Source: Polytrichum commune
Taxonomy: Eukaryota > Streptophyta > Polytrichopsida > Polytrichales > Polytrichaceae
DNA: 64,000 bases
Assembly: GCA_950295325.1 (NCBI GenBank)
Contig: OX485804.1
Span: 5,640,001-5,704,000 of the forward strand
Direction: 5' to 3'
Shown: in pieces, positions 1 to 27,005 of the stretch
How the letters are laid out: each line of letters opens with the position of its first letter
How positions within the stretch are numbered: position 1 is the stretch's first letter
The notes under the pieces: model-generated
The model's input: the letters and a program-made list of their open reading frames with translations, nothing else
Database searches by the model: none
What the model was told of the DNA's origin: nothing
Program-made: the position numbers and the translations under genes

Positions 1-110
1 TATAGGAACTCGGGGGATGCACTCTACATTATGTTTGAGAATCACGTGCGTTCACGACCCCTTCTAAAAACCCCAATGTATACCATAAGTTATATGTCTA
101 AGTAGAGATT
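1..110 (+). mobile_element. Possible left end of a CTCGGGG-type DNA element
   Basis: From base 9 the sequence reads CTCGGGGGATGCACTC and carries CACGTGC about 40 bases in. This matches the left end of the complete element at 20360-20777 (CTCGGGGGGTGCACTC, then CACGTGC at the same spacing). Bases 1-8 (TATAGGAA) would be the 8-bp target duplication, but no matching right end was found, so the element is either truncated or misread. Confidence 0.35.
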
Positions 111-326: not shown

Positions 327-327
327 T

Positions 328-1430: not shown

Positions 1431-1885
1431 CGGAAGTCAAGTTGACGGAATGAAGTGGAATATTAAATCGTGCATGGTTTGTTCATGTATGTGATTTATA
1501 AAGGGCATTTGTACCGTCATCGCAATAATAAAGTCATTACTTGTACATCGTTGTCTCCATAGGGGTGATAATTTTTTGGTCATCATACTACATTGGTTAG
1601 TTTGTTGCTTGAGGGATCCTCCATTAGTTTTGTGTGGATAAGTACACCGGTAATGATATTTAGTGTCACATATATTATTTGCGAAGGGCCTAAGTTAGAT
1701 GGGGTGCGGATGGGGGGACGCGGGAATGTGTAGTAGAAATATTATTGCATATTCATGTAGAGGACTTCATTACCTATCCATGGATACCAAGAACTCATTT
1801 TTTGGACTTCATATGAATTTTTGAGAGCCAAAAAACCGAGACTATGTCCAAACTTCCAAAAAAAGTTAAAAAGTGCAGATTCAAA
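1431..1885. other. Non-coding gap
   Basis: No gene is visible. Around 1656 there is a GATATTTAGTGTCAC fragment that matches the ends of the TTTAGTG MITE family (30641-31040, 45877-46097). Confidence 0.5.
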
Positions 1886-2460
1886 GGAACTCGGGAGCGG
1901 ACGTATGGGAACGCTAGAGCGGACGCAGGGGAACTCTAAAGCGGACGTAGGGGAACATGGGGCGGACTTATAGGAACGTTGGAGCGGACGTAAGGGAACA
2001 TGGAGCGAACGGGGGGGAGCGGAAGGGGGGGGGAGCGGACGGGGGGAACGCGGGAACGGACTGAGGGAAGCGGACGTAGGGAACGAGGGGGCGGACGTAG
2101 GGAACGAGAGGGCGGACGTTTGGGAACGGGTACGGACGGGGCGGGAACGGGTGCGGACTGGGGGGGAACGGGCGCGGACGGGAGGGAACAGGTGCGGACT
2201 GGGGGGAACGTGGGCGCGGACGTAGGGGAACGGGTGCGGACTGTCGGGGAACGTGCGCGGACGGGAGGGAACGGGTGCGGACTGGGGGGAGCGCGGGGTG
2301 GCGGACGTAGGGAACGGGTGCGGACTGGCGGGGAACGGGCGCGGACTGGGAGGGGAACGGGCGCGGACTGGGAGGGGAACGGGCGCGGACTGGGAGGGGA
2401 ACGGGCGCGGATGGGAGGGAACGGGTGCGAACAGGGTGGGAACGGGGAGCGGATGGAGGG
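1886..2460. repeat. G-rich GCGGAC minisatellite, left array
   Basis: An array of GGGAACGGG[C/T]GCGGACTGGG-type units on the plus strand. The last units are an exact 22-bp period (GCGGAC at 2341, 2363, 2385, and GCGGAT at 2407). Earlier units are looser and run through GAGCGGACGTA(T/G)GGGAAC variants. The array is strongly strand-asymmetric (G on plus, C on minus), CpG-rich, and has many G-runs that could form quadruplexes. The Gly/Arg/Glu and Pro/Ser/Arg frames read from it are artefacts. Confidence 0.9.
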
Positions 2461-2884
2461 GTATATAAGTGGAGGGGACCACTTACATACCCCACTCCAC
2501 TCCTTGTGGGTGCCTGGACGACCCTCCTCTACTACAGAGTGCGGGGTTTAGCGGGGTGCTCGGAGGAGTTAAGGATCCCTTTTTTGGGATCATTTTATAC
2601 TTTTTTTACTGACCTGTTTGTGGGTGTGATCCACGTGGACCCGTTCCCTTGTGACGTGGCATATTGCCTTTTTGGCATATTCCTTGTAACGCGCCCAGTC
2701 AACTGGCCTCTGCGTGAGCGCTGGTAGCGGGGTGCGCTGAACTTTTGTACTTTAATTTTTAACGACAATTTTGAACTAATTCCACAGCAACACTATTTTG
2801 AAGTGTATGCTTGGATGTTTTGTAGCACTATTATGAAGTGCAATTAGTAATTTAAAAATTAGAGTTCTAGATTAGAATTAGAAA
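2461..2884. other. Non-coding gap before the coiled-coil pseudogene
   Basis: No supported gene. The TATATAAG string at 2462-2469 is TATA-box-like and lies just after the G-rich array, about 430 bases before the first codons of the coiled-coil pseudogene. It is a possible promoter, on position only. Confidence 0.3.
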
Positions 2885-2895
2885 CTACAATTTGG

Positions 2896-5197: not shown

Positions 5198-5896
5198 GCA
5201 TTTTTGTACCATGTTTAGGAAGTTGTATAGGAACGGATGAAGACTTTGGACACAATGAACATATTTCATGTTCAAAGCATATGTAATATAAAGAGGATTT
5301 ACCGACAAGTTGTCATTTCTAAGATCGTGTAAAAGATAACATATGGATGCCACATGTTTTAATGTTATTCGAAACTTTTAAAAACTTACTTGAATATTAG
5401 TAATTCATATGATAGTCTAACCAAAAGTACTATTGACTACATAGTCAATATTGAATACTACATAAAGATATAATTATATAAAATGGATAGAAAGGTCCTC
5501 AAAAAGAGGATGTCACCAACGAAGCATGTACAATCGAGCAATAGGGGATTGCAATATTTATAAAAGCATATTCTTTAAGAAGCTCAATAAATAAACATAA
5601 AACTCCATTCACAGTAAGAATTATACAAAATAGTAATTAATAAAGGCATAACATGTTATTGGAGATTAATTGCAATGCTAAGTTGACAACCATATTGTAT
5701 TTTAAAAATTTTAAAAAACATGCAATAAATAATTTTATTACTATAATAAAATGTTACAACTTCGAAGGTAACGTTCGCTTTGTGGTCTAAATGTCTTACC
5801 GAAGGCCCTAAGGTTGTAACTTGTATCAATTTTGACGTAAGTAATAAATTATGGGAGTACGTGGGAGCATCGAAATACCACATTTGTACAAAACCA
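5198..5896. other. AT-rich gap between convergent pseudogenes
   Basis: No gene. It would hold the 3' ends of both convergent pseudogenes. No clear terminal inverted repeat was seen here. Confidence 0.5.
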
Positions 5897-8394
5897 TTAC
5901 GTTCGAATCCGTACTGTGGGATCATTTGCTTCGACATATCTTGGGTCCTCTTCAGACTCGTCTGTGCTGCAATCATCATCCATTTGGGGAGTCGCGCTCC
6001 GAAGATGCAACTCTCGGTCACGTTGTGAGAAAATTATCTTCTTGGTCGGCCGGGAGCCCTCTGCATTCTGTATGCTATTTTCATCTAGATGTGGTATACC
6101 CTCATCTTCATTGTAGTCTTCAGCAGTAAACGGAAGCGATCTTCCCTGATACCTCTTCCTAGTACGTTTGACACCTCTCGTAGTTCTCTGACGCCCTCCA
6201 CCCGTACCACGACTTGAGTGCACTTCATCTCTACTTCCATCTATAAAAACATCCCCCGTTGTACTTCCGCCTCCAACTCCAAGGCCACCTGTTCCATTGG
6301 ATTGGCTGTGTGGAAGTGAAACTGATGCGGATGGAATTGCAATTGGTATGTTCTCAACAACATGTCGACGAACAGATTGACGACGTGGCGCCTCTGTAGT
6401 AACATTTCTTGAAACATTGTGTATAGCAACCAAAGTAGCACCCACCGCAATTGCACGTGAAACACCCAATCTAGAAGTATTGGCAATACTTCGAGTGAGA
6501 GGATGACGTTGACCTTGTGCATGCACTTGCACCGTAGAGGTTGATGCAATTCTTTGAAGAGCACGGAATCGAGTTGTAGGTATTTCAGGAACATTGGGCG
6601 TTTGATCTTCTATACGATGGTTGGATATGAGGGAGGCGTCCATGGATTCAGAATGTACTCGGGCTAGAAGTGGATCCTGTTGAACGTGCGTTGGCTCATT
6701 TGCGGGTAGTACATTGTCACCTTCACCAAAAGAAAAAGAATCGCTCCGAGGTTGCAAGGAATCTACGTCAATTCCTACATTCTCACTTGCCCCCATAGCA
6801 ACATTATGGGCAGGGCGAAACCCTTGTCCAGTGTGGAGAGTTTCAAAAGGCGGTCCTCCAATAGACCCCTCATGATCGTCATGCATTCCGTCGTTATGTT
6901 GGGGGACATCCGGTTCATCAAAATCAAACACCCCAAGGTTTCCATCACTACCATTGCCATCCTCATCTTCTGAATCATGATTCTCGGAATCGAGGTCATC
7001 CAAATCAAAGTCGATGTCATCAACATTGTTGTCATCATCATTTCCGGCCCTATCATTTGGATCCACGTCATCTTCGTTGTCATCTTCTTCGTCAAGGTCA
7101 TCGTCAGAATGGACCTCATTCAATTCGTACCATTGCGCAGGTCTTGGGCCCCTCCAATGTCGAATGAGCCTACTATTGGTATATATGTAGACGAGGTCCT
7201 CGGCACGACTATGCTTCAAGCGATTGCGACTCTTGTTGTGAACATATGAGTACATGCTCCAATTGCGTTCACATGCGGATGCGGAACATACTTGTGCAAG
7301 GATACGTCTTGCTATTGTTTGGAGGGCTTTAGCTCCACCTCCCATTGCATCCCACCATTCATGGAGAGGTGCGGCATGCACGCTCGGGTCAGTAGAATCA
7401 GCAAAAGGCCCTCGATTTTCAAGGAAATCTTGGTACTGGTGGAGGATTTGGACATAAGTGTCCTCATCTTGAGCAAGCCTGCGAAGAACTCGATTTAGGA
7501 TTGTCCTCGAATTCTCATCCTCATGGAGTGGGGCCCAACCACGTAGAAACGGATTTAACATCGCTCCAGCCTAATGTAGATCATTCAACATCAACCTCCA
7601 TCTATTTTGAAACGTTAGCATAGCATTTGCAGCAAGCTCAGGGCTTAAGCGAAATGGAGGTTTACTGAATCCACGAATATGGGTTTGTAAATCATGCATG
7701 ACCCTCCAAGCCATTCCCATTGCAGGCGCCTTGCCATCAAATACACGAAGAGCTTTAACAACCAGGATCACCATATACAAGAAATTTTCGCACGTGTTCC
7801 AGAATCCATCAGAATGTATAAAGCTTCGCACATCAGAGCCCTTCATGTAAGAGGTGCGAGATCTCCTCCTCATATCACGCATTAGAGTAGGCCAATCCTC
7901 ATCAACCACCATTATTTCCAAAGCATTGCGTACTTGAAGAAGACGATCTATCATGATGAAGTTCGTTGCAAAACGGGTCTCTACAGGTAGGCGGAGTGAG
8001 AGATTTGGTGACAACCTCCGGAATATAGCTTGAGAAACATGATGGTTTTGATAAAAACATAAATATGGCGCGCCTTTTTTACCAACTTTTTCAACCATTC
8101 CTCCTTCCCCCAATTTTCTAAGAGGAGATCTAGGCAATGCGCAGCACATCCTTGAAAATATAGATTGGGATTTGCTTGAATCAAGTCGCGAGCAGCGGAG
8201 GCCATAACTGGGGCATTGTGTGAACCCTTTGCGTGGTCCACCACTCTGCGGGATCACTTTTAGTTAGAATGTTAGCATTAAAAGTTAGAATTGATAGGGA
8301 ATTTAGGAAAAATTAGTTCATTTAGCATTTAGCCTAGAAGAAGGAAGGTCAAAATGAAACTAAGTAGTGCTAGAAGATAGCAAAGTAGAAAAAA

Positions 8395-8500
8395 TGTGCT
8401 AGCTAGTAAAAACAACTAGCTAAGCAAATATTAGTAGATGCTAGTTATTAAGCAAATGTTAGTAGATGCTAGCTAAGCAAGTGTTAGTTTATTAGTTAGT
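8395..8500. repeat. Short tandem repeat
   Basis: Three diverged copies of a roughly 30-bp phrase (AAGCAAATRTTAGTAGATGC, then TAGCTA). It lies inside the insertion in the hAT gene. Confidence 0.6.
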
Positions 8501-9289
8501 GTGAGGCACACAAGACTATTGGAGGTGTTTTACGTAAGAAGATAAAATCGGCGTGAAGAATTTTGAAGACAAAAAAGAAAGAGAGCAAGGGGGATACTTG
8601 CCCACTTGCCCCCTTGCCAACTCGATGGCGGAAAAATTAGAAAGATTTCTAAAGGTTTTTTGTCGGAGCCACCTCGGCGAGAGGGTGGCAACCTCAACCG
8701 GGAAAACCCCCGAGCCAAAATTTCGGGAAAGGGTTTGAAAAATGGATCCGGTGGAGGAGGGGTCCAACCCTTTTGTGAGAGGGTTTAAAAACCCCTCCTT
8801 CCACCTTGTAGCTCTCTCTCTTTCTCTAGTTTTTGGGCGAAGCCCTGCTTCAATGTAGTTAGGAAAAAATCCTTTAGCATGTATTCTCAATGGTCTAGAA
8901 GAAAGGCTTGAGAACCTCCTCTACTCTCTCTCTCCTAGTTAGGTTGTGTGTTTATTAACACACCAACAAAATTATTCCTTCTTTTGTAGAGGTAGGTTGG
9001 ATGGTAGAGTTTTGAGTAGAGGCATTATAGACCTCATCTGCCAATGCCCTGAAGGCTTAGTTCAAAAGCTAGAACAAGATACTTATCATTTTTCTCTTAG
9101 AGAGATTTCATATAGCTATCCATAGCCGTTTCCCATTTGTGATTTGGTTGAGATGACAATTAGTTATGGATTTTCAAAGATGGAGTAGAAAAACTGGGTG
9201 GTCTTGTGGGTAGCGGCTGCTGGATCAGACCTGCGAGCCCAATAGGAATTTTAATTCCAAGAAATTATATTTTTCCCAAGTAGAACTGT

Positions 9290-9660
9290 TGTGTAGCTTT
9301 CCAAAATGGCTTAGAACATTTGATTTGAGCATGATTTGAATTAGATATGAATTGTGCAAGATGGGACACATAGTTTGAGAACTTTTGGTTGACTGCTGCA
9401 TTACAGAGGACCTGCTGGGTTCACTTCGGCTTACCTTTCTAATCACATATTTTTATCAAATACATCTTTTTAATATCTCTCCAGGGTCATATAGAACGTT
9501 TGATTTGACTAAGATTTGAATTAGATATGAATTGTTGAAGGCGAGATACATAGTTTAAGCCTTCTTGATTGACTGCTGTGTTACAAGGAGTCCGCTGAAT
9601 TTCTATTAGCTTAACCTGCTGATGTCATAATTTGTCTAGTTAGAGCTTGTTCATAGCTTT
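9290..9660. repeat. Diverged tandem duplication, about 185 bp
   Basis: The phrase TTGAATTAGATATGAATTGT followed by a GACTGCTG(C/T) stretch occurs at about 9337-9400 and again at about 9517-9580. A weaker third trace follows near 9650. It is part of the non-coding insert. Confidence 0.6.
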
Positions 9661-11006
9661 CCAATGGTATAAGGAAAGCCTAGATACAAGTAGTAAGGAA
9701 TGTGCTATGAATTTTTGAAGTTAGAAGGTAGATAGGTGGGTTGGAAGGGTCGGTTGAATCGACCTCACACTTCCAACCCTCATAACTTTTGCATTTCTTA
9801 TCCGATTAGAGTGATTTTTAGATCATTGGAAAGATAATTTGGTGCACTAAGTATAAATATTATGCTTAGGATTAAATTACAGGGCAGAATAACACTTTAT
9901 ATTTTAATTGTTAACTAAGGTACGCTTACTACCAAACTAGTTACAAAGAAGGAGGCAAGGTCGACGCTCGGAAAGTGGAGCGAGGAAGGAGGTAGCGGCT
10001 CGGCCTACATCAAGCCCAAATCAACCGAGGAAAATTGAGGTAAATTAACTAACCTTAAGCCTTCCATTTAGGATTGGAGGGGACACGGCTAAGGTACGCA
10101 TCTCTAAACCCACTCACCTATCTCGTAAGGTCAAGTGGCTTGACCACTTGACCGCCAAGGGAGTACCCAATTCCATTGTTTTCGGGGCCCTTGGTATGTT
10201 TTGTGGTAGTAGCTTCATTTATTAGCAAGTTTCGTGTGTGGTAAGTCGGATTAATCACCGACACGACCACTCTGAATGTTGTTGGTGGAAAGGTGGGGTT
10301 AATGACCCGCGAATCCACTATTATGTTGTTGGCCCCATAGATTGGGAGTAATGGCCCCAATTTATGAAGATTGCGCAACAGGTTGAACCTACAGGTCGTC
10401 CGTCACCCTGGTCCCATTGAGTTGCATTTCGTGGTCTATCCAGTGTAAACACATTTAACAATCAAAACATACAAAATAAATCGTAAACCCTTGTTGGCAA
10501 GAGACCCGAGGTAAGGGGTGATGCCTAATATGTTAATGTAGTAAGTTAGGACGTGCAAACAAAAGTAAGTAATTAAGAAGGAATTTGTGTGAAGGGTGGG
10601 ACTTAGGCCAAGTTCCCCCGCTTGGAAAACTAAATAGAACTAAATAAAGAAATAGGAAGAATTGAATGGTCCATCAAATTGTCGTTATTCCGTTCGTTGA
10701 GTTAGGGTGGTATGAGTCACACCCGGTTGGGTGTATGAGAACCATCCCAATTCACAAATTAGGATTGCCTTGGTTTCAAGGCTGGTGCGTCTGCGCGTAG
10801 AATAGGTTGTAGGTTAAGGTTAGAACTAGATATGAAATTGGTTAGTGGAGTTTAAAGTCACACTAGTAAAAAACTAAGGCCTAACCTCCGGAGGTACTAC
10901 GACGCATATTTAATCTCCCTTAAAAATCTAATTACTCACGTTATACACCTATCATCCGGGTTCGGCTTGGGCGCCTGCAAATGCAGGCCACCTTCACCGA
11001 AGGGCT

Positions 11007-11059
11007 TGTGTGATACTTTTAGGCTCCCTCGAAAGGGGGTGGCCCAAAAGTACCACACA
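11007..11059. repeat. Terminal hairpin of the insertion
   Basis: TGTGTGATACTTTTAGGC is followed by a short spacer and then its near-perfect inverse GCCCAAAAGTACCACACA. The hairpin lies exactly at the right boundary of the insertion. Confidence 0.7.
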
Positions 11060-11937
11060 TTGTCGGTGCAAATCTGGACCACATTATGTCGACCAACCTT
11101 TTCCACAAATGGTTGAATTTGAGCAGCAACGTATACATGATCCTTGTGATTTCCCGTGGTATCAATGGTACCCAAGAAAACGTCTCCCTTTGTGCCGCAT
11201 TGGAGAACGTTTAGGAGAGGTCGGTTTTGCACGTTGTCCCATCCATCACAACATATTGTAACACCGTATTTTTCAACGGAATTCCCCATCTTCTCCTTCA
11301 CTTGCCTATCTAGGTCAACATTTTTATCAGTTAACAACTTCGTACGGATGGCATTGTACGATGGTGGTGTGTAGGTTGGCATTCGATGACGGGCAGTTTC
11401 ACGCACAGCATGAACAAATGTAGGATGTCTCACAATGTTGAAAGGAATGTTAGCTTCATAAAAAGCCGTTGCCCATGCTCTATCAAGGAGTTGTTTTGTT
11501 GACACATTAAATCCCTCCGTTATGTTGAGTTGACGTAGTTCACGAGGAGGTGTGCCATATATCACAACATCAGAATGTTGAGTGGATTGGGACATAAGCA
11601 AAGGCTCTGTTTCACTAATTACGGAGTCCGTTATAATAGGCTCCAGAGGTACAATATCTGGCACCGGAGAGTCCTCATTTACAATGCCTACATGTAAGGG
11701 CACAATGCCTCCGCAATGTTCAAACAAGACCCTAATATGCGGGGGTACCATCCTACATGTGGAAACATCACAAGCACCCCCTACAGGAGGTCTATAACCA
11801 AGGTGGGCCAACATTCTATTTCCTCGGTAAGATATGACGAACGGGCAAAACCTACATTTAACCTGCCTTTGTGATTTACCGGGAACCATCCCCTTATCCT
11901 CGTACCAATGATCCCATGCATCATTTCGGCGTGGCAT

Positions 11938-12182
11938 GACTTCAACAAAACCTGCAAATACAAACAAGTTAGAGCAAGTAACTTTGATCGCATACTAGGT
12001 CCTGTTCAAGAGTGCCACAAGGGCAACCCTAATTCACAGTCACTAGATTGGACAAAGTATCCTCTGCATTCGGGTCTCACGCATTCAATCCTCACTCCTC
12101 AAAGGAGAATCAAAAGACTTGAGACACACTATGTCAGTGGAGGCAAAAATGGCACCTTGAACCCTCAATTTATAGTATTCGA
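11938..12182. other. Upstream region of the hAT gene
   Basis: It contains a TTTGCAG acceptor-like site (minus strand, next to the start codon), which would suit a 5' leader intron. Nothing else was recognised. Confidence 0.35.
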
Positions 12183-12562
12183 ATCGGACGGGGGAGCGGA
12201 CGGAAGGGGGGGGGGGGGGAGCGGACGGAGGGGGGGGAGCGGACGGGGGAGCGGACGGACGGGGGGGGGGGGGGGGGGGGGGACGGAGGGGGGGGAGCGG
12301 ACGAGGGAGCGGACGGACGGGGGGGCAGACGGGGAAGCGGACGGAGGGGGGGGGGGAGCGGACGGGGGGGCAGACGGGGAAGCGGACGGAGGGGGGGGGG
12401 AGCGGACAAGGGAGCGGACGGGGGAGCGGACGGGGGAGCGGACGGGGGGGGGGCGGACGGGGGAGGGGGGGGTTGGGAACGGGAGCGGACGGGGGGGAAC
12501 GGTGGCGAACGGGGATTGTGAACGGGAGCGGACGGGGGGGAACAGGGGCGAACGGGGGTTGG
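12183..12562. repeat. G-rich GAGCGGACGG minisatellite, right array
   Basis: Tandem GGGGGAGCGGACGG-type units with variable G-runs, grading at the right end into GGGAACGG(G/T)GGCGAACGG units. The core GCGGAC and the G-on-plus polarity are the same as in the array at 1886-2460. All reading frames here are low complexity. Confidence 0.9.
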
Positions 12563-12686
12563 GAACTGTCGCAACCCTTGCTAGGTCCCTTAATAATCTT
12601 GCCAATTTTCAATTCTAGCAAAGGTTACGAGTCGCTAACCCTTCGCATTCCGCCATGCTATTGGATAGCTCCTCTTACCCCGGACC

Positions 12687-13546
12687 AATAGTTCATAGGA
12701 GGGAACCAACCCTCCTACTTTGCTTTCGGGACTCACCCCTTAATCGGTAACCCATTTCCCCAATGTGGACTTCCATCCATGGAAGTCCAATCCTATGTTG
12801 ATCATCGCGTTGCCGGAGCAACACTACAACAACCCGAAGCATACTAGGCAACTATGGCCTCACAATAGGCCAAAGCCCATGGAGGCCTTGCCGTTCGGCC
12901 TCGGGTGGGTGAGGCCACACCACCTCACCCATATAAGCCTCTAGGACTCTACGCGGGGCCCCTACCCCACCGTCAACCAACCTCTTGTCTCTCTACCAAG
13001 AGTTGGGGCCAAGTGGACATTTTCCCTTAGCCGCTGGGCCTAGAAGCCCCCAGCAGCTTCAGACCATCATAACTTCCTTGTATGATGTCTGATTCCAGCA
13101 ACCAACCACTGCATCTTCATCTACGCTTCACGTAGATGCCGATGGACTCCTCGCTTGCCCCATTCGGGGCAAGTCTTGAGGAAGTTATGCCTGTTTGAAC
13201 CTTGGCAGTCCCGGGAATCACTCCCAGGCACTGCTGTACCAGGGTGCTGTCCCGGGACAGCGCCCCACTCAAATGGCCATAACTCCTAGCTCACACCTCG
13301 GATTGAGGTGTTCTTGAGCATTCTAGAATCACCACGCCATGAGCTACGCATAGCTTATGGCCTTACCCTTGTGCCTCCTAGTCTTCGTGGATGGGAGGCG
13401 TTCCCAACGCCCAGGGACCTCATCCACACTAGGATCACTTGGGCCCTCTCACCAACGGCGCCACAAGTCCCGGGTGTCACTCCGGGGTCCCCCTTGTGCC
13501 CATGGTGTTTCGGGCACTCCTCATGGAGAGGTGCGCGACAGGAACG
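12687..13546 (+). repeat. Left arm of ~850-bp inverted repeat
   Basis: Starts ATAGTTCATAGGAGGG and reads inward to about GTGCGCGACAGGAACGG. It pairs with 13815-14649 in inverse orientation along its whole length, with scattered substitutions and small indels. No coding content was recognised. Confidence 0.9.
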
Positions 13547-13814
13547 GAGGCGGACGGGGGGGCGGACGGGCTCTAGTAAAATTTTCCCCACTTTACATTT
13601 ACTTTGCTGACATGTCATCACACGTGGACATTGTAAATCCTACGTGTCAGAAATGGGTTAATGTAATTACACAAAAAAATCGGTAAAATTCAAGTCCGTT
13701 AGGATAAAGACAGCATCCGGCATAATGTCGTGACGGATACGTGTCGTGACGGCACGACATTATGTCGGGATTACCCTCTGTCACGACACAATAGACAACC
13801 CTGGTCACTTCTAC
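13547..13814. repeat. Spacer of the large inverted repeat, with GCGGAC units and a palindrome
   Basis: At 13547-13570 there are two more GGCGGACGGGG units, the same core as the two G-rich arrays. At 13721-13764 there is a hairpin with 12-bp arms (CATAATGTCGTG / CACGACATTATG). Confidence 0.8.
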
Positions 13815-16279: not shown

Positions 16280-16287
16280 CTTCCCCC

Positions 16288-16628
16288 CTCGGGGGGGGGG
16301 GGTTTAGTCATTGGTTGGAGTAGCAATATACGTGTGAACAAATGATAGGGTATTTTAAAAACATGGGGGCAAAAATTTATAAATGGACTTAAGCATAATA
16401 TAGGGTATCAAAAATGGCACTGGACATCTTTAAAGTACTATAGGGTATGGAATAATAGGTAATTTGGAATTATAAGTAATGCAAGCCATTTTTCTATTAA
16501 CCCAAAGTAGAAATTTGCATAATGATAGCATGTGAAAAAAAAAATTGAAAGTAATACCCCCCTATAAAACAGTGGTTGTTCGCACTTATATCCTTAACTT
16601 TTTAACACACTGCCCCCCCCCCCCCGAG
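16288..16628. mobile_element. CTCGGGG-family element, copy 1 (341 bp)
   Basis: Bounded by CTCGGGGGGGGG.. and ..CCCCCCCCCGAG, with a perfect 8-bp target duplication CTTCCCCC at 16280-16287 and 16629-16636. About 45 bases in from the left end it has ACGTGTGAACAA, and the inverse right end has AAGTGCGAACAA. These correspond to the ACGTGCG motif of the other copies. It is AT-rich inside and non-coding. Confidence 0.85.
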
Positions 16629-16636
16629 CTTCCCCC

Positions 16637-17467
16637 GCATCAACATACTCAATCGGCAGCTCAGCTAAGTAGATTCGTTCTCCCATGTGAGAACTCCCCT
16701 GATTCGCATTCCTCCTATAATGCTGGGTTTTGTTCTTCGACCGCACAACCAATTTCTCACATACTGCCAACCCAGTGCATGTTTCATGTCGGCTCACCTC
16801 TTGGCCGAATGTGCAGACCTTCCGCACAGTAATCCTCAGCTTTCCTCACCGAATCTGGACGCCTCCACAACAGAACCCTCACCATTGTTGCCACCCTCCA
16901 TTTCCTTCCCCCTCCATTTTATCCACTACCATCCCATTAGTAGCTCCAGATTTCTTCTTCGCTGCCAAAAAAAACTCCTCGCCGCTTCCTCTTCCCCCTT
17001 GCTGCCCGAACACCCACACCAGAGCCCTCCTACCCAGCCTCTGAGACCCCTCCCCGGCGCTACCCGGAAATCCAGAGCCTAATCCAACTTTGGGAGGACG
17101 CCCTACCCCTAAACAAACACATTACTCGCCATAAACCCACAATTAAAAGTGGCTAAGGCCATTCCTGACTTTTCCTTTCACCAAACTCTAATTAAAACCC
17201 CCCACTTTTTAGTTTTCTTCCTTTTGAATCACAACAATCTCACACTTAATTTTGAAACTAACTAAACTTAATTCCCTCCAACCCCATCAAGCCTTAAAAC
17301 TAACACAACAAAATGCTAACATTTATGTTTGAACATGATTTTCAGTTCAATTAAAATGTGGGCACCGATTTGGGCTCACAACACCATTCAAGAAGGGCCA
17401 CATGGAGAAGCCACTATCAAGTGATGAAACTTGGTGTAATCAAAAACACCATTCCACTCACATTAGT
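16637..17467. other. C-rich, non-coding gap
   Basis: Pyrimidine-rich stretches give Pro/Ser-rich open frames at 16687-17082 that lack any recognisable domain. I do not support a gene here. Confidence 0.4.
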
Positions 17468-17833
17468 GTCAAACAAGGATTTGACATTCTTAAGGCACAA
17501 TTTAAAGAAATTTGAACAAAGTCGCACTTGAAAATATATTTTCTTCCTATAGTTATACATTGTTGTTATGTGTTGCACAACATTCTACTTGTAAACAAGG
17601 ATTGTATATTGGACCGATTTCTCATTGATTGCCACCTACGACCTATGCAAGAAGAAGAATTTGCTCCTAGAGAGGACGGTGATCCTTTCTTACCTCCAAG
17701 ACTTATAGGCCTTGTGAGCAAGGAAAGAGGATTGCTAGATGGGAATGTGGCTAGGGAGGATCTATTAGACTACTTGATTCACCTACAAAATATCAATTAC
17801 ATGTCTAGACACCTAGTAGGACCATCGCATTGA
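17468..17833 (+). pseudogene. PIF/Harbinger transposase C-terminal remnant
   Basis: The plus-strand frame reads VKQGFDILKAQFKEI, an in-frame TGA at 17513-17515, TKSHLKI, then FLPIVIHCCYVLHNILLVNKD and a C-terminal tail ending at a stop near 17831. The FxILKxxF and I(V)xxCCxLHN blocks are those of the DDE_Tnp_4 (PIF/Harbinger) nuclease domain. The catalytic DDE residues further upstream are missing or unreadable, so this is a truncated, stop-interrupted fossil. Confidence 0.75.
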
Positions 17834-17899
17834 TATTTTGGGCTAATGCATGCTTTAGACTCTAGGAGGCCGACTCACATGTGACCTCATTTTGACATG

Positions 17900-18325
17900 C
17901 ATGCGATGGTAAAAGTTGACCTCAAATCCTAGTTGAGTGTCATTTTGAAGCTCAACTTTTGTTTCAATCCTACTTGAGTGCCACTTTAAACCTTGCATAC
18001 CTACACAAAAACTCCAAAAGTATGACATGTGGTTCCATCGCTAGAGAAAACTTGTATGACCTGAAAGTCCACATGAATCTCACTTGAGTACCACTTTACA
18101 CCTTGCAACCCTACCATGAAATTCAAAAAAACTAACAGTGGTTCAATGCCTAAAGCGAGTATAACCTCAAATTCCACATTATTCCACTTGAGTGCCATTT
18201 TAAAGTTTGCATGCCTACACTTAAATAAATAAATAAACTCACGTGTAGTTCAATGCCTAAAGCACATGTGAGCTCAAATTCTACATGAATCCTTGAGTGC
18301 CACTTCATAACTTACATACCTACAA
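17900..18325. repeat. ~105-bp degenerate tandem repeat
   Basis: Five diverged copies of ACTTGAGTGCCA(C/T)TTTAAA..TTGCAT(A)CCTACAC, beginning near 17933, 17972, 18083, 18185 and 18293. Each is followed by a GTTCAATGCCTAAAGC / CTCAAATTCCACAT phrase. Inverse copies of the same phrases lie at 19865-20070. Confidence 0.65.
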
Positions 18326-18328
18326 TAA

Positions 18329-18483
18329 GGGCCGCTTTACACTACGGTGGAGAAGTGCACCGGTCGGTCAAGAACTTTCGCCCAAGACATGGTTGTTTGA
18401 GGTGAGGGATGGTATGCCAGAAAAGATGAAAAAATAATAAAATAATGCCTTAAGAAGTCTTGACCGGCCGTAGTGTAACCACC
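18329..18483. mobile_element. Tourist-like MITE, GGGCC..TTTACACTACGG ends
   Basis: The left end is GGGCCGCTTTACACTACGG and the right end is CCGTAGTGTAACCACC, an imperfect inverted repeat. The flanks are TAA (18326-18328) and TAT, close to the TWA preference of PIF/Harbinger elements. Related ends occur at 20077 and at 46802-47130. Confidence 0.5.
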
Positions 18484-18494
18484 TATAGGAGAAG

Positions 18495-19496
18495 CTCGGG
18501 GAGTTCACTGCGATAATATTAGAAAACAACGTGCGGGAAAATATAGGGTAATTTATATTCACAAAAGGAAAAACTTAGAATTTTCTTAGAAGTAATATAG
18601 GTGAGTATGTATGATAAAATTTGTATTATAAATAATATAGGCTTGATACAAATAACGCATATTTTTTAAATATTTGTAAAAATATACCACAGGGTTTAAG
18701 GATCCTAGGTTTTTTTTGAAATAGGGTGTCCTTTGTGTTCAAAGGCGGGAATATTTTGGATGAAAAACTACGTCGATTTAGTTGAAAAAATGGGATGAAA
18801 GATTGATGAGGGCGGATGACGGATTCCTGGGTTTATGATTAAAGGCATGCATTATTTGTTGATTATATACTAGTGTTCTTAAAAGCTAGGAATTGTTTTG
18901 CAAGATGAACATGACATCTTTCATTTTCTATGAACAGTTTTGCTAGTATTTTTAAATGCTATAAACAATTTCTCAAGATAAATTAGAGAAGTTTTAATTT
19001 TGGTTGGTCTTGTGTCTATCTGCTTCAAGTAGGATGTTGTAATATTAACTCTATACCCTTCTACATTATTGCATGGACCCTATTTTTGCTTGCTTTGTTG
19101 TTGGTGTTTTAATTGTTTTTTTTACACTCAGTACCGTTGTGTTTAATTGTGCGTGTAACTTGATTGAGGAACATGGGCTGATTTTGTTGTTTGAAACTAT
19201 TTATGAACACTCTTAATGTAAAACCTTGCTGTGCCTTGGATTTTGGTGACTTAGTACTTTGAATGCTCTTAAACCCTTTGGAGCAAAATCAAATAATTAT
19301 AATGAACATACGTAGCTTAAAATTAGAGCTTCATCAAATTTAAAAGTAATTATAGGGTCATTTAAAAAACAAGAAATTAGCAAATTATATAATAATATGG
19401 TACAAAAAATTAAGGATGGATAATTAAATACCCCTTGAATAAATACCCTTGTCACGCACGTGTATACATATATACATGTCTAGTGAACTCCCCGAG
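18495..19496. mobile_element. CTCGGGG-family element, copy 2 (1002 bp)
   Basis: Ends CTCGGGGAGTTCACT.. and ..AGTGAACTCCCCGAG give a perfect 15-bp inverted repeat. The 8-bp target duplication AGGAGAAG is perfect (18487-18494 and 19497-19504). AACGTGCGGG lies about 35-45 bases inside the left end and the right end has CGCACGTG. It is non-coding. Confidence 0.9.
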
Positions 19497-19504
19497 AGGA
19501 GAAG

Positions 19505-20351
19505 TGTATTGGACAACTTCACCAAGAGGAGAAGTCCACTGGACTACTTCACAAAACGGTCAAAGCCGGCCATAGTAGAAACCTTACCCCCTAAATGACC
19601 ATTGTATTGATATTTATAAAAATTAGATTGATAAAAAAAATGTATATGGCAATGTTTTAGAACTTCTTTCATGACAATAATTTATTTGAAAATGTTCCAC
19701 CTCTATAATACATCCAAATTAAGGTAAATAAGTAGGTAACATTATCTTCTTATTGATTTTTAAAGAAATAACATGTTGGTATAGTCCAGCCTCGTTAATA
19801 CGACACTCGTTTATATGACACCCTCAATATTACGACACATTTTTACGAGACCGAATTTTTTTAGTTTAAGTGTAGGTATGTAGTTTTTAGAATCTCGACC
19901 AAGTAGGTGTCAAACAAAAAATGAGTGCAAATATGCTAACACATTGAACCACGTGTGAGATTTTGAATTTGATGGTAAGGGTGCAAGCTTTAAAGCAATG
20001 CTCATGTAGGAGACAAGGAGGGTTTAAGCTCACATGTGCCTTAGGCATTGAACCGGTTGTGAGGTTTTGAGTTTTAGGGCCACTTTACACTACGGTGGAG
20101 AAGTCCTCTGGTCAAGAATTCTAGGGAATTCTAAAATTTGATTGGCTGAAAGTGACACTCTTGTCCGGTGGTGGTTTACACTACGGCCAAGAGTCCTTTG
20201 GTGGAGAACTTTGTACATGGATGAAATAATGACATGGTTGGCAACATGGCCACACTATTTTCAAGGGGAGTTCTCCGGAGGTCAAGTTTCTTGGGCAACC
20301 TCAAAGCCTCGGACAAGAAACTCCAACTTCAATAAAACATTTCTTCCTCAA
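19505..20351. other. Mosaic of MITE fragments and inverted repeat units
   Basis: It holds a diverged MITE end (GGCCATAGTAGAAACC near 19570), inverse copies of the 105-bp repeat (19865-20070), and a TTA-flanked MITE end GGGCCACTTTACACTACGG at 20077. A further direct copy of a TTTACACTACGGCC end is near 20167. No complete element could be closed here. Confidence 0.5.
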
Positions 20352-20359
20352 AGAAATCT

Positions 20360-20777
20360 CTCGGGGGGTGCACTCCATTGTCAGGTTGAACACCACGTGC
20401 AATAAATAAAATCTACTTTCTACATAAAGCATCACCAAAATGGGTCAAAATTTTATCAATTGTTTTTCATGAGTAGATATACATGGTATCTATAACATAA
20501 TAAAAAAACAATAACCAAATTATTATTTTTGATAAACTTTATAAAAATACCGTTTCTAACTAGAATGACGCAAAATTGAACTAAAACAATTACTACAAAA
20601 TTAAGATGCTCACAAATTTCAAAAATTATATATATATATATATATATATAATATCAATGGTTATGCACATGTAGAAAAAATATCATAATTTTCAAAATTA
20701 TTTATGGCATATAATAAAGGGTAGCAAACTTTTATCGCATGTGGTTATGAAAAGTAAGGGGGTGTGATCGCCCCGAG
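20360..20777. mobile_element. CTCGGGG-family element, copy 3 (418 bp)
   Basis: Ends CTCGGGGGGTGCACTCC.. and ..GTGTGATCGCCCCGAG, with a perfect 8-bp target duplication AGAAATCT (20352-20359 and 20778-20785). CCACGTGC lies about 37 bases inside. It contains a (TA)n run at about 20628-20650. It is non-coding. Confidence 0.88.
20628..20650. repeat. (TA)n microsatellite
   Basis: Eleven or more uninterrupted TA units inside the 418-bp element. Confidence 0.9.
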
Positions 20778-20880
20778 AGAAATCTTTGCACTATTGTTCT
20801 CCCTCTTTAGTATGACATTTTTGGGAAATACAAAAAAGTCGTATTATCGAGGTGTCGTCTTCTCATTACTATGACAAATG

Positions 20881-23025
20881 CACGGGTAGATCACTTAGTG
20901 CATTTTAAAAACGACGTGCGGCATAATATAGAGAGGATTAAAATCATTTGAAATAAAAATTATAAAGGAATTCCAAATAATGAAGGGGCCATTAAATGTA
21001 GACAATCCCATTATAAGTAAGTTAGATGGACATAAAATGTGGGCCATTATTTTTTTGTAAAATTAATATAGGGGTTGAAGATAAGGATCCTAGAAGGTAT
21101 GTTTAGTATGGTATGTAAATGGGTTTAGGACTCACGGGGATGGATGATAATTGGGATTTCCGTCTGTCCAAAATTACTTAAAAGGAATATAGAGTATGTA
21201 GTGCGAATTTTTTGGCTATGGCTTAATTTGATTAGCGGCAACAGGCTAGTTAGTAGTAAAATTACTCACAAAGACATTTTGAAGCTAACTACAGTGTGAA
21301 TAGCAGGCTATAGGCGGTTGCAGGCGGTTTGCGCCCTACCAGCAATTACTGTAGCAGGCAGGCTATAAGTAGTCCCTCTCCGACGAGAGAGATGGATCAT
21401 TTTCAAGTTAAAAATCATATCACAGCTGTGAGAGCTGAAGGAATAGTGCAGGCGATAGGCTAGGCACCGATTGTAGAGGCAAGTCGTAGCTATGGAATCC
21501 TGAGAGAGAAGCATAGGCTATAGACAGTAGGGTGTGTTAAGATAATAGTTTAGCCAGGATATAGCCTGGTAGCTTTGTTTACGCTTTATTTTATGAATAA
21601 TCAAAGTGAAGTTTTGTGGAATGGAATGATGCTGAGTGGAAAGCCAGGAAGTGAGAAAGCGTGTTAAGTGTGAGTACAATTGAGATTGTGATGTTAATGA
21701 GCAATTAGGCTATAATCATGGATATAGCAGCAAAAGTGGTTGTGAATCGAGTGGTTAAACCAGAGAGGTGAAGGGTCAGAAGAGATAGAGGAGACAAAAT
21801 TATTGAGAGCAGACAACCTAAGTCGAAAGAAAGATGGAGTGATAAGACAATGTGTGATTGTAGCTATAGCCAGGACTATCTGAGTCTAAGTAAGTTATTC
21901 AAGGGATAGTTATCCTAGGCTATGGAGAGAGAGACAATGAGTCTAGTTGTAATGTGTGAGAATCAGAAAGAGTTGTCATTGAAATAGAGATGATTCACAA
22001 GAGGTGAGATCAAAGCAGGGAGTTGATTATAAGTGGGCTAAATTCTCAATATATAGAGCAAGTCAGAGAGATTAACTACAGGAGAGTAATATATATATAG
22101 CCGAGGGAGAAAGATGACATTTACTACGGAAGAGTAGAGTTACAGTTCCCCGAGAGTAAAATACAGGCATCCGAGAGAATATATGAGATTAAGTGTATAG
22201 CCAAGTAAGGGCACTTTGACTTGGTCCTATGGCTATATGAATTTAATTATCGTTCGCGAATTACAAAGAATACTAGAATGATATAAACGAACCTATATAC
22301 TATAAAGTGATGATTGCAGGCTTGAGACGCCAGACTTCACCCGTGTTAGGAAATGGTGGCTATAGTCTTGGAACCAGTGTTGGATTAACCGTGAGTAAAT
22401 CTAATTATAGCCTTTCATTGAAGAGCAATACACAATTAAGTGAAGAGGTAATTAATCAATCCACACATGAGACCATGATAATTAAGAGAGAAAGGAAGGG
22501 AGAGATGGCAGTTACAAGATTATAGCGCCCAAAGGGTGAAGACAAAGCATATAGGCTTTTAACCAAAACCCCACGACTGAATTAAGTCCAAACCTTAGAG
22601 CGATAGAAAATTCCTTGAAGATAGGACGGAATCACTCACTACTGAGAAAGCACAAAGGAATCATAAGAATGAAGGATAAATGGAATAATTAAGGAACGGA
22701 GTGAGAGATGACTTAAATTGTTAGTATGAACCTTAATCCAATGTGACATTAACCCTTATAGACACTAGCTCAGTCTTCCTGGAGACCTTGTTCCCTGGGT
22801 TTTTTGTGGTTTAAAAGACCTAGCAAAAACTTACTACAAAGTACAAAAAATTGCAGTGACTTGGACAATATAAGTAATGGAAGGGTGCAAACAAATGGGC
22901 CATTTTTTAAATTTAAGTAATTATAGGGAGGCTTTAATTCAACCCTTGAAGGTAAATAGCCCCAAAACAAAAAAAAAACCAGCCGCACGTGGTGCACAAA
23001 AATGCCTTAGAGTGATCTTCTCGTG
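20881..23025 (-). mobile_element. CACGGGG-family element, copy 4 (2145 bp, inverted)
   Basis: Ends CACGGGTAGATCACTTAG.. and ..AGTGATCTTCTCGTG, with a perfect 8-bp target duplication GACAAATG (20873-20880 and 23026-23033). The first ~285 bases are an inverse match to the right end of the 25523-26997 element, and the last ~180 bases are an inverse match to its left end. The two are therefore relatives in opposite orientation. The interior (about 21170-22840) is not shared: it is purine-rich, non-coding and unusually rich in short GGCTATA/TATAGCC strings. Confidence 0.9.
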
Positions 23026-23716
23026 GACAAATGACATAAGGTTGTCATACTATTCAGGGAATACGAAAACATAAGTAATATGAGCTTAAATATATACACA
23101 ACAAGTTTTAGTAATATAGATGGTATGAAATAATAACTTTTAACTCCAAACAATTACAAATATTCTCATGAACTCTTAAAATAAGAGTCCAAAGATCTTT
23201 GGTGTTGCCTACTCAAATTAGCAGTTGTCATCTTATCTGAATTCCCATCTTACTTTTGGAAACTAATAATTTCATTAACACCAAAATATAAAGAGTTCTC
23301 TAATAAGAAACTAGAGAACAATGATGCATGACGTTTAGCATCAAGATAATGGTGATACTATATCACCCGTGTACAAGGCAACATACTAGGCAGGATGCCA
23401 CTCTCATCCTAACCATGTCCATTCTACACTAGTAACCCTAATTACCATTAAGTTCCCAACAATAAGTGAAGTTCCCAAGTAGTTTCCAAGTGAAGATAGA
23501 TGTATTTTAGATGTACATTATATAGATGACAGGAATTCTAGCATTAACTACCTCTTTAATATGACAAAACAGAGATTCTATATGTTGCATTATCGAGTGT
23601 TGTAGTCGTATAAGACAAAATGAAAAACCACAAAAAGGAGAATGAACAACCTTGTCAATGCATCCATTAATGAGGTTATTATCAACAACGCGCTTGCAAC
23701 ATTTCCTAGATGTTTA

Positions 23717-24874
23717 CCGTACGTTAAGGGCAGCTTCGGCGCTCTCTTGCCGAATAATTATTAAAAGTAAAAAAACAGTGTTCGGCGGCCAAAAAAAAAT
23801 TACTAAAGATTTCGGCATTTTAAATAGTTTAATAATGCAATTTCGGCATACATCCAAGAAGTTATTATCTAACAGTTAACAAGGATGTTTATTCACGATT
23901 TCACAATTTGTGTGAAGAGTTTTACAAAAGATATAAGTCTTTCACGATTTTGTGAAGAGTTGAGAATGCTCTGTGCTTTATACAAGTAGAGTGGAGTTGT
24001 GTTCAACAATGCATATGGGATATGTAAAGTTTGAGGTGAAGCACCTAGTTAGACTTCATTTTTATAACACGCATAACTTTTGCATAGAGTCTTCAAATGA
24101 CATAAAATTTGTTGGAGGTGAAAGATTACTTGATTTCTAAACTTTTCTTAGAGCACCAAAATTCCAAAAAAGTTGATCTTCTATGCACAAATGAGCTCCG
24201 AAAAACTGTTATGAACGCATTTTAATTTTTTGATCTTTACACGGCTGCAATGTTTTGTCCATATCTTTCGCATAAAGACTTATTTTGACACAAAACTTGT
24301 TGGAGGTGGAAGATTACTTGATTTCTAAACTTTTCTTAGAGAAACAAAATTCCAAAAATGTTGATCTTCTATGCACAAATGAGCTCTGAAAAACTGTTAT
24401 GAACGCATTTTAATTTTTTGATCTTTACACGGCTGCAATGTTTTGTCCATATCTTTCGCATAAAGACTTATTTTGACACAAAACTTGTTGGAGGTGGAAG
24501 AAGGATTGATTTCTCAACTTTTGTTAGTTGGACAAAATTCTATAAAACGTCATCTTCTATGCTCAATTGGGCTCCAAAAAATTGTGTACAACACATTTGA
24601 AAAGCCTCACTTAGAGTCTTGCTACTTCTTAACCCATATTCTTTGTGGACTAATGTAAGTGAGCTTGATTACAAAAGGAGCACCTTCTCTCCTTCAGAAT
24701 TCATATATGCTTCCAGTGTAAGTAAAATTCTAGTGAGAAGTTAAAATTTCTTACTTTTCGGCAATTTTGAAAATTAATTAATTTTATATTCGGCAAAAAA
24801 TGTCAATAATTTTCCAAAATTTTCGGCGTCTATTTTTAGAATTATTTTGTGCCGAAGCTGCCCTTAACGTACGG
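23717..24874. mobile_element. 1158-bp DNA element with perfect inverted ends and TTCGGC subterminal repeats
   Basis: The outermost 24 bases at each end are perfect inverse copies (CCGTACGTTAAGGG.. continuing to CAGCTTCGGC), flanked by TA on both sides (23715-23716, 24875-24876). Both subterminal regions (23741-23850, 24745-24850) contain several TTTCGGC or GCCGAA motifs. The middle is a 188-bp tandem duplication. No coding capacity is visible. The TA duplication would fit Tc1/mariner-like or related elements. Confidence 0.85.
24104..24540. repeat. 188-bp tandem repeat inside the element
   Basis: GATTACTTGATTTCTAAAC occurs at 24124 and 24312, with near-identical text between them and a degenerate third start near 24500. 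Confidence 0.85.
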
Positions 24875-25522
24875 TAGTCTTCTCCACTTCTAGCTCATAA
24901 AGTTTTTGATCCATAGTGGCGGTTTGCAACTCTTTTCGCGCAATTTTTCCCTCCCACGCCATATCAAAAACCAATGCCTCATTCCTCCCAAAGTTTGTTT
25001 ATCCCTCTCTTGAACCTCCACATGTGCAAGGTACTCGTGGTAGAAATCCTTTACAAATCCACCAAATTGTCGGTGTTGGATGATTTCCTCTTCCGAACGG
25101 TACTCCCCTGGTGTGTCATCCATTGGATAGTTAAATGTGTGTGTGCTTGACATTTCCAGACTACCCCGCTACAAAAGGAGGAGGAACACGTGGTGTAGGC
25201 AGAGAACGCCCATAATGTTTAGGGAATGGTGGTGCCAAGTGATTGGATTCCACAACATCCAAAGCACGCCTACAGTTTTGCTTCTTCCCTCCCAAACCCC
25301 TTCATGTCATTGTACATTGATTCACTAAACTCAAGGCTATTTTCCTAGTTCTGGACAACTCTTCCTTTGACATGCTCATACCCCACCAATTTGTTGAACC
25401 CGAACCCTCTATGTACTCTTTGATTATATATTCTTTGTAATCCTTCATCAAGCCTCCTACTTATTGGTTATTTTTGGTTGGCATCCCTAGGCTTGAAACC
25501 AACTACATTCATGCATCTGGCT

Positions 25523-26997
25523 CACGGGGAGGTCACTCAGTAGGATTTTTGTGTACCATGTGCGGCGGAGGGGTATTTGTTTAGGGGCTATTTACCTCCA
25601 AGGCACGAATTAAAAGCTCCCTATAATTACATAATATTCTAAAATGACCTATTTTTTTGTACCCTACCATTACTTATAATGCCCATGTCATTGAAATTTT
25701 TTGTAGTCTATATTCCTTTTAATTAAAAAATTTAGATTTAAGAATGTATGCAATGCAAAAGTGATGGGAAAAGCATGGCAACAAAAAAATATAAAAATTA
25801 CGTACCATGCATTGCAAAAACCAAGTACAAAAACTTAAAGTGAAAATACAAAAAGAAGACTTAGGATGGAACACAACATGATTGTGTGTGTGTTCACAAA
25901 CACAACACCCGCTCCATAAAAATCTTTTATTCAAAATCACTTTACATGCTAGTGAAGACCAAAACCATATAGTGTGAAACACTTTAAGCTTGGTCATGAA
26001 TCTTATATAGTTCGTTCTGTCACAAACTTGGACAATTGCTCTGAATCATTCCTATCAAGATTGTACACCTCATTTGTAGAATTGTAGCTCATGGTTACCG
26101 TAGACACAATGCAATCTACATCAATCCATTTGCTATCCGTGTGATCATACTTAAATTTGTTACGGCCTGGATATTTTCTATAATATTGCAACATTACTTC
26201 GATGTGGGGATTATTAGGATTTCTCCTCCCTGATTCCTCCGTTCGAGCAAGGAGGTCAACTGCTTGCCTAAGTACTCCAAATTGCTTCCCATTGCGCCGC
26301 CGCATAGCCTGCACCCTACCCACCCACCATGAACTGGAATCTACTCCGTTCAATATGTTAGTAGCATTTCCAGCTTTAACATCAATCATTGAACGTCCCC
26401 TTTTTCGTTTGGCAGCGGATTTTACAGTTGACAATAGCATTGTTGTGCTCCGTTGGACAAAATGCACCCCACAATCAGATCCTATAGATAACAAACTTGA
26501 TCCACATGAAGATCTTGCTTGGAGACAATTATCATGGTTGTTGAAATGAATACTATGTTTAATTCTTGCTAATCTATCTTTGGATAGAAAAACATTACCA
26601 TTGAGTTGCGAGACAAACGTTGACTTGTAAATGGAATGCCCATCAACTTCTACAGTTGGCAAAAAATTTCCGGTTCTCTGTACTGAGGCTTCCAATTTCA
26701 TTCATTTTTGGGTGAATGATGAGTAATTTTTCATCCATCCCTCGTGAGGCATGCGTACGAAATTAATTCTACTAAACATACATCCTAAGATCCTTATTTT
26801 CAGCCCCTATATTATTTTTACTAAAAGGGAATGGCCCATATTTTATACCCATCTATTTTACTTGTAATGGGCTTATGTACTTTTAATGGACCCTTCATTA
26901 TTTGAAATTCTTTTGTAATTTTTATGTCAAATGATTTTAATCCTCCCTATATTATGCCGCATGTCGTTTTTAAAATGCACTAAGTGACCTCCCCGTG
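25523..26997 (+). mobile_element. CACGGGG-family element, copy 5 (1475 bp)
   Basis: Ends CACGGGGAGGTCACT.. and ..AGTGACCTCCCCGTG give a perfect 15-bp inverted repeat, with a perfect 8-bp target duplication ATCTGGCT (25515-25522 and 26998-27005). CATGTGCGGC and its counterpart GCCGCATG lie about 35-45 bases inside the two ends. It carries one sizeable frame on the minus strand (26003-26701). Confidence 0.92.
26003..26701 (-). CDS. Hypothetical protein carried inside a transposon, 232 aa
   Basis: The only long frame in the 1475-bp element, ATG-started at 26701 on the minus strand. It has an N-terminal stretch with an SLSKDRLARIK-like charged segment, then a basic KSAAKRKRGRSM that looks like a nuclear signal. 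The C-terminal half has WWVGRVQAMRRR, VMLQYYRKY and KFKYDHTDSKWIDVDCIVST. No DDE catalytic block or zinc finger is visible, so it does not look like a complete transposase. It could be an accessory transposon protein or a captured host-gene fragment. Whether it is expressed is unknown. Confidence 0.45.
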   Translation of the reverse strand: MKLEASVQRTGNFLPTVEVDGHSIYKSTFVSQLNGNVFLSKDRLARIKHSIHFNNHDNCLQARSSCGSSLLSIGSDCGVHFVQRSTTMLLSTVKSAAKRKRGRSMIDVKAGNATNILNGVDSSSWWVGRVQAMRRRNGKQFGVLRQAVDLLARTEESGRRNPNNPHIEVMLQYYRKYPGRNKFKYDHTDSKWIDVDCIVSTVTMSYNSTNEVYNLDRNDSEQLSKFVTERTI

Positions 26998-27005
26998 ATC
27001 TGGCT

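Follow-up and report, generated by a model that had tools for sequence, protein, structure and literature searches.

CWCGGGG-ended miniature transposons of Polytrichum commune and a conserved protein of about 1500 residues as their likely transposase

Elements in the window

The 64,000-nucleotide stretch of the Polytrichum commune genome analysed here (contig OX485804.1, positions 5,640,001 to 5,704,000; hereafter the window) harbors five short DNA elements, designated T6, T3, T4, T2 and T1, with similar inverted ends (Table 1). A sequence check of the 64-kb window finds exact boundaries and different, perfect 8-bp direct duplications at all five of them, so that every boundary pair of the initial annotation stands. 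All five possess inverted ends of the CWCGGGGNGNTCACT type, a G run standing instead of the TCACT part in the 341-bp T6. Across the elements these CWCGGGG-type ends begin with CTCGGGG.., CACGGG(G/T).. or CACGAG.., and each element also has an inner CRTGCG-like motif. By reading, four elements have ACGTGCG or a CRTGCGG-like sequence as this block (with ACGTGCA at one end of the 418-bp T4), and T6 has GTGCGAAC/GTGTGAAC. The near-constant place of the block in different subfamilies agrees with the initial annotation and is what would be expected of a transposase-binding site.

Table 1. Coordinates of the elements and related features in the window
Feature	Position	Strand	Remarks
Solitary CTCGGGGGATGCACT..CACGTGCG end	9..50	+	inside a large hAT element
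T6, 341-bp non-autonomous element	16288..16628	+	8-bp duplication CTTCCCCC
T3, 1002-bp non-autonomous element	18495..19496	+	duplication AGGAGAAG
T4, 418-bp non-autonomous element	20360..20777	+	duplication AGAAATCT
T2, ~497-bp non-autonomous element split by a nested insertion	20881..23025	+	duplication GACAAATG
Unrelated 1643-bp insertion inside T2	21197..22839		4-bp duplication AGTA
T1, 1475-bp element	25523..26997	-	duplication ATCTGGCT; strand is that of the remnant ORF
T1 end of B type	25523..25565	+	CACGGGGAGGTCACT with inner CATGTGCGG
232-aa ORF in T1	26003..26701	-	C-terminal remnant of a ~1500-aa putative transposase
T1 end of A type	26957..26997	-	inner CATGCGG

Two pattern scans show how specific these ends are within the window. 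When C[AT]CGGG..CCCG[AT]G pairs at most 8 kb apart were sought, with a tolerance of one mismatch in the 8-mer, the scan detected four of the elements and no other pair; the remaining element escaped it, having CACGAG at its right end. In the second scan, a composite end pattern in which the spacer was fixed and up to 3 mismatches were allowed gave six matches in the window versus none in 100 shuffles. Five of the six coincide with ends of the five elements (out of ten such ends), and the sixth is a new end at 9-50.

The sizes of 341 to 2145 bp proposed initially hold with one correction, at T2. Of 40 scored genome places matching this element, 33 match bases 1-316 and 1960-2145 of the query with a 4-bp overlap and have no middle part; 21197-22839 is therefore a later insertion, and the 2145-bp length is that of a ~497-bp element plus its insert. 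Six of the remaining places (seven rows) match the inserted piece alone, and one is the query itself. The insertion ends near TGTAGT..ACTACA and has five near-full-length relatives (77-97% identity) and a split one among the scored places.

Subfamilies and copies in the genome

The initial annotation treated the five elements as one family, but they are five subfamilies with a common end code. Longer sequence is shared in the window only by T2 and T1, which are 87% identical over 228 bp and 80% identical over 186 bp at their two ends. Close copies are present elsewhere in the genome: all 40 scored places of T6 and all 40 of T3 are near full-length at 95-100% identity, and 37 of 40 scored T1 places are full-length or within 2 bases of it at 94-100% (queries included). 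The runs of G/C at the T6 ends vary from 7 to 19 among 20 fetched copies, and this end is perhaps prone to slippage. In reverse orientation, T4 aligns over 388 bp at 78% identity with a ~408-bp family, T5, whose 20 fetched places are all the same element (92-97%).

The strict end pattern CGGGGAGNTCACTN(18-24)CRTGCGG occurs 1073 times (528 + 545) in the 408-Mb genome, with no occurrence of the reversed control; T5 contributes more ends than any other family to the 100 places listed. A second pattern, designed around the commonest inner sequences so as to exclude them, occurs 223 + 266 times, partly at the same places. It added two further families, T8 at ~250-270 bp and T9 at ~625-890 bp, both of them short, and this search for rare ends led to nothing else. 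The five elements are mostly of the kind called miniature inverted-repeat transposable elements (MITEs), and their group has more than 1000 ends in the genome.

Target duplications and target preference

Exact 8-bp duplications flank 77 of the 87 fetched copies of five families when the boundaries are allowed to slide by 8 bp (T6 17/20, T2 19/20, T3 18/20, T1 7/7, T5 16/20). Under a rule demanding that both ends be intact, exact duplications are present at 12/20 T6, 16/20 T2, 15/20 T3 and 7/7 T1 copies. The displaced control gave 3 of 67 for T6, T2, T3 and T1, the 20 T5 copies being left out and the right boundary having to follow G, a slightly stricter setting than in the main scan. The genome-wide check of flanks had been set beforehand as a refutation test of the initial assignment to class II elements with 8-bp duplications, and the assignment withstood it. 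Outside the count of 87, a further 11 copies include 6 with exact duplications, 3 with one mismatch and 2 without duplication, and two T1 copies with nested inserts both have exact 8-bp duplications.

Pooling of the exact duplications, those of the five window elements included, gives 82, of which 81 are distinct. A ninth base agrees in 27 of the 82; this is near chance, and the duplication length is therefore 8 and not 9. The locus L079 is a T3 element nested in another T3: AGTGTTCT flanks the inserted copy on both sides and is present once in the T3 of the window, at its bases 378-385.

The targets favour nnTnnAnn, not nTnnnnAn. T at position 3 and A at position 6 account for 76 of 164 (p = 9e-7 versus the composition of the duplications themselves, the two positions having been chosen once part of these data had been inspected), whereas T/A at positions 2/7 is found in 45 of 164 (p = 0.86). 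The latter, nTnnnnAn, is the target preference of Ac/hobo-type hAT elements, and it is not seen here.

A protein of about 1500 residues

The T1 element contains an open reading frame (ORF) of 232 residues (Table 1). A search of the genome with this ORF gave 153 matches, the best 150 of 1444 candidates being scored. At least 11 of the listed matches lie in open frames longer than 1000 residues (1180-1549) at 43-95% identity, a stop lying within one of these matches, and because of these frames the T1 ORF is taken for the C-terminal part of an intronless protein of ~1500 residues. The T1 ORF is 95% identical to the C-terminus of the frame at L134 and 85% identical to residues 1277-1502 of the 1502-residue frame at L135. 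The ORF itself gives one chance-level row against Pfam (E 0.06), and its predicted fold has a pLDDT (predicted local distance difference test) of 30. A role of the 232-residue ORF as a functional repressor is not supported: differences at codon positions 1, 2 and 3, summed over pairs of 8 copies, are 96, 165 and 152.

Five long loci (L134-L138) were fetched, spanning 95% to 44% identity to the T1 ORF. The frame is open throughout in L135, L136 (1518 residues) and L137 (1493 residues) and interrupted in L134 and L138. In an alignment of the five proteins, identity to the first is 82, 62, 48 and 48% for those remaining. L134 and L135, 80% alike over the ORF, give a ratio of nonsynonymous to synonymous substitution rates (dN/dS) of 0.13 over 1178 codons (Nei-Gojobori, one pair); in the other nine pairs synonymous sites are near-saturated (synonymous differences pS 0.78-0.83, nonsynonymous differences pN 0.22-0.39). 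The long protein is under purifying selection.

No domain library searched gives this protein a name. No Pfam family matches the three full-length proteins at E up to 10, apart from one chance row (0.24); no NCBIfam model, from a library of prokaryote models, matches two of the long proteins; a profile search found no PDB sequence (best E 0.4). Relatives in viral and prokaryote contigs were not confirmed among 45 and 41 pattern matches, and among the titles and abstract openings listed by the searches of the open-licence literature none describes CWCGGGG-type ends or the ~1500-residue protein. All five long proteins share D707 (LAxDETKVK), D826 (HxSDGDSRRR), D873-x2-H876 and E1068 (CExFFS), which were picked by eye among many invariant residues. 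Two BED-like Cys/His pairs are visible by eye in the N-terminal third. Strings of acidic residues such as D..D..[C/D](2)H..E occur in several transposase superfamilies.

Ends of the group beside the long frames

Ends of the group lie at three of the five long loci: right ends follow the ORF in L134 and L136, and a left end precedes it in L137. The L134 end is of B type, as in T1, matches at 15 of 15 positions, has the inner block ACGTACGG and is located 505 bp past the stop. Bases 310-1499 of the T1 copy L006 (read from the A end) are 97.5% identical to L134 along a stretch running from the last ~227 codons across the 3' flank of 505 bp to the 15/15 end; the T1 of the window is 94.3% identical to the same stretch. 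The last part of T2 is 82% identical to L134 (205 bp) and 97% identical to L135 (70 bp, where the fetched piece stops), and in both cases the match begins at T2 293/294. Short and long forms have thus diverged in parallel (T1/T2 and L134/L135), as expected if each short family were an internal deletion of its own long form. By this sequence comparison T1 fits an internal-deletion derivative of a long element.

The T6 subfamily is related to other long copies. A right end of T6 type stands 735 bp past the stop of L136 (85% identity over 162 bp), ahead of an independently inserted T2. In L137 a left end matching at 13 of 15 positions is placed 790 bp before the open frame, a score that none of 181,488 background positions reaches (L029, the holder of such an end, being left out). 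The left flank of L137 is 67% identical to the left half of T6 over 114 bp (E 6e-10, obtained in AT-rich DNA with the low-complexity filter off and accompanied by a weaker reverse match at E 0.004). The same flank carries GATATAGGTGAGAACAA, a motif taken from L136, at 16 of 17 positions; its distance from the end is 31 and 32 bases in the two loci. The similarity of T6 to long copies accordingly lies with the left end of L137 for its left half and with the right end of L136 for its right half: both ends of T6-type elements occur around this ORF family, on different copies.

The initial annotation had proposed to look for a longer copy encoding a transposase. Such copies are found in part, as ~1500-residue ORFs with a right (L134, L136) or a left (L137) end, and none of them shows both in the sequence read.

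Mechanism of mobility

Most probably (with a probability of about 0.8), the five elements are non-autonomous cut-and-paste transposons moved by the ~1500-residue transposase of rare long relatives. These relatives, with an estimated length of ~6 kb or more, would encode an enzyme which recognises an end of ~15 bp (CWCGGGGNGNTCACT) together with a motif ~30-45 bp further inside, namely CRTGCGG or, in the 341-bp group, GTGCGAACAA. The inner motif would then be its binding site. The transposase would cut both ends and insert the element with an 8-bp stagger, preferring nnTnnAnn targets, and at least T1, T2 and T6 would have arisen as short families by internal deletion of long copies. Subfamilies T3, T4/T5, T8 and T9 may be mobilised in trans by the same enzyme.

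Several observations weigh against this explanation. In the pieces fetched, none of the five long loci shows both ends and its own duplication. No end is recognised in the fetched pieces of L135 and L138, in the 1.1 kb before the first open frame of L134 (left end), in 1.25 kb of L136 (left end) or in the 0.9 kb after the ORF of L137 (right end), and the fetched piece of L134 lacks a second copy of the 8 bp that follow its right end. T6 finds no match in the left flank of L136 (best E 0.23), and the filter setting and reverse match noted above bear on the comparison of L137 with T6. No long partner was found for T3, T4/T5, T8 and T9. No duplication was found at the fetched copies L130 and L124, the latter being a T9 with a damaged right end. 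Finally, no transposase domain is recognised in the long protein by the Pfam, NCBIfam and PDB sequence searches.

Relation to known superfamilies

The initial annotation named hAT, P, Merlin and Mutator as candidates. None of these could be established: the likely transposase has no Pfam match, and the duplications lack the Ac/hobo-type preference.

Elements of the hAT superfamily (Ac/Ds, Tol2, Hermes) have 8-bp duplications, short inverted ends and subterminal motifs, and in these features the present group resembles them. The elements could accordingly be hAT MITEs of the ordinary kind, with one of the genome's many hAT transposases as the mobilising enzyme and the long ORF as a passenger or an accessory protein. 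Dimerisation domains of hAT are abundant in the genome (at least 150 scored matches, all over the cut-off), a CTCGGGG end lies inside a hAT element with a 1084-residue frame, and the two BED-like Cys/His motifs in the N-terminal part of the long protein (seen by eye) and its CE-x-FFS motif resemble those of hATs. However, in 20 of the 150 hAT matches, mostly those with the longest frames and read 2 kb downstream only, no CWCGGGG end closes the element; in one of them, L029, such an end faces the opposite way, and a T9-type element starts there. For the 1084-residue hAT, the one hAT family whose right end was read, the right boundary of homology is CAGGGTTGTC from outside in. Dimer_Tnp_hAT (PF05699) and DUF659 do not match the three full-length long ORFs at E up to 10, and the duplications follow nnTnnAnn and not nTnnnnAn (p = 0.86). 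Movement by an ordinary hAT enzyme is therefore improbable.

The CTCGGGG end in question is the solitary end at window 9-50. Its flank is shared by three further fetched copies of the large hAT, and the end lies inside that element; homology extends ~1 kb further left, and the right boundary is ..CAACCCTG. A hAT link through this end, which has the same distance and orientation to the 1084-residue hAT ORFs, was tried and rejected, since TATAGGAA before the end is shared sequence and not a duplication. The region 1-13803 of the window is part of this large element, with the right boundary CAGGGTTGTCTATTGTGTCGTGACGG from outside in (in the window and two other copies). It contains a DUF659 ORF (10936-11967) and a dimerisation-domain ORF (5897-7561), both on the minus strand; the three other fetched copies keep the 1084-residue open frame, with low-complexity frames adjoining.

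P elements likewise have 8-bp duplications and an inner site near each end, and the present elements with their ~1500-residue protein could represent a very divergent branch of the P superfamily (Drosophila P, THAP9). PMC8230255 gives the catalytic string of Drosophila P as D230, D303, D339 of the [C/D](2)H motif and E531. The order D707, D826, D873-x2-H876, E1068 follows this string, D..D..[C/D](2)H..E, and the gap of ~190 residues between the H motif and E is almost the same (195 in the long protein versus 192 in Drosophila P), whereas the other spacings differ (119 and 47 versus 73 and 36). The profile comparison of the long protein with the P-superfamily string is not significant, nor are those with two hAT pieces and a MULE (Mutator-like element). 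In a shuffle test of alignments P reached 3/300 (2/300 in semi-global mode), with a hAT control nearly equal at 4/200, and the P alignment left the second D and D-x2-H unpaired. The long ORFs match neither PF21787, PF21788 and related TNP-like RNase H / GTP-binding models nor the THAP domain, in place of which they have the two Cys/His motifs. PF21787 has no match in the genome at E 0.001, in a search that gave none in any control genome either. The size of ~1500 residues, the CWCGGGG ends and the target T at 3 and A at 6 also set the group apart from P. Membership in this superfamily is possible and rather doubtful. According to PMC3985635, P and hAT are placed in one clade of RNase H-like transposases; for this reason the ambiguous position of the long protein is not surprising.

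Mutator-like elements make duplications of 9-11 bp. Their domains are common in the genome (142 MULE matches), and one of them is nested in a T1 copy, which might suggest that the CWCGGGG elements are themselves MULE derivatives. Two pairs of long-spaced T1 ends (12.1 and 7.8 kb) were examined as candidate autonomous copies and rejected, both being T1 elements with nested inserts. One insert encodes a MULE domain (E 5e-9), and the other, of uncertain class, hints weakly at a SWIM domain (E 0.026, under the cut-off). Both are separate elements with ends of their own and 9-bp duplications, GATTGAATG and TGGGAAAAG (by eye), in contrast to the 8-bp duplications of the CWCGGGG group, in which the ninth base agrees in 27/82. 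Neither MULE nor SWIM models match the long ORF, and a Mutator-like origin is very unlikely. The larger insert is 10.6 kb long (L009:400 to L010, G000 C1:2.077-2.089 Mb), and its inverted ends start with CCCTAACATTACC; its MULE-domain frame of 472 residues is similar in size to many other open copies, and a second large frame gives a weak C2H2 hint (E 0.54). The frame with the weak SWIM hint belongs to the smaller insert at L011.

Duplications of 8 bp in KDZ/Zisupton and of 8-9 bp in Merlin agree in length with those described here. The KDZ model PF18758 is absent from three long ORFs and has no match in the genome, in a search without positive control; as for Merlin, the long ORF matches no Pfam model, and the genome itself was not searched for this superfamily.

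Altogether, the ~1500-residue protein is probably a DDE-like transposase, not tied to one superfamily, and the invariant acidic residues suggest that it would use an RNase H-like DDE site. The group may represent a cut-and-paste transposon of a little-known or new kind. We tentatively consider that the protein could be the transposase of a previously undescribed eukaryotic DDE superfamily, with CWCGGGG ends, a CRTGCGG inner site, 8-bp nnTnnAnn duplications and MITEs with more than 1000 ends.

Other repeats in the window

Between T2 and T1, positions 23716-24875 hold a 1160-bp element bounded on each side by ACCGTACGTTAAGGGCAGCTTCGGC, a perfect inverted repeat of 25 bp. By eye, no direct duplication is evident outside this repeat; were GGGCAGC the core ends and TTAA the duplication, the empty site would form a palindrome of 20 bp. 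A different repeat, whose inverted ends resemble GGCCRCTTTACACTACGG, occupies 18327-18490 and 20076-20195, and the 1002-bp T3 appears by eye to be inserted in one copy of it.

Significance

An orphan MITE with an 8-bp duplication is often classified as hAT by duplication length alone. The partner protein of the present group appears to be large, conserved and open in several copies, and none of the domain libraries searched names it. If it is the transposase, some MITEs filed elsewhere as unknown or hAT-like may be misfiled, and the intact ORFs of 1493-1518 residues together with near-identical short substrates in one genome would constitute a two-part testable system. Such an enzyme would also provide a point of comparison for the divergence of P-like and hAT-like enzymes.

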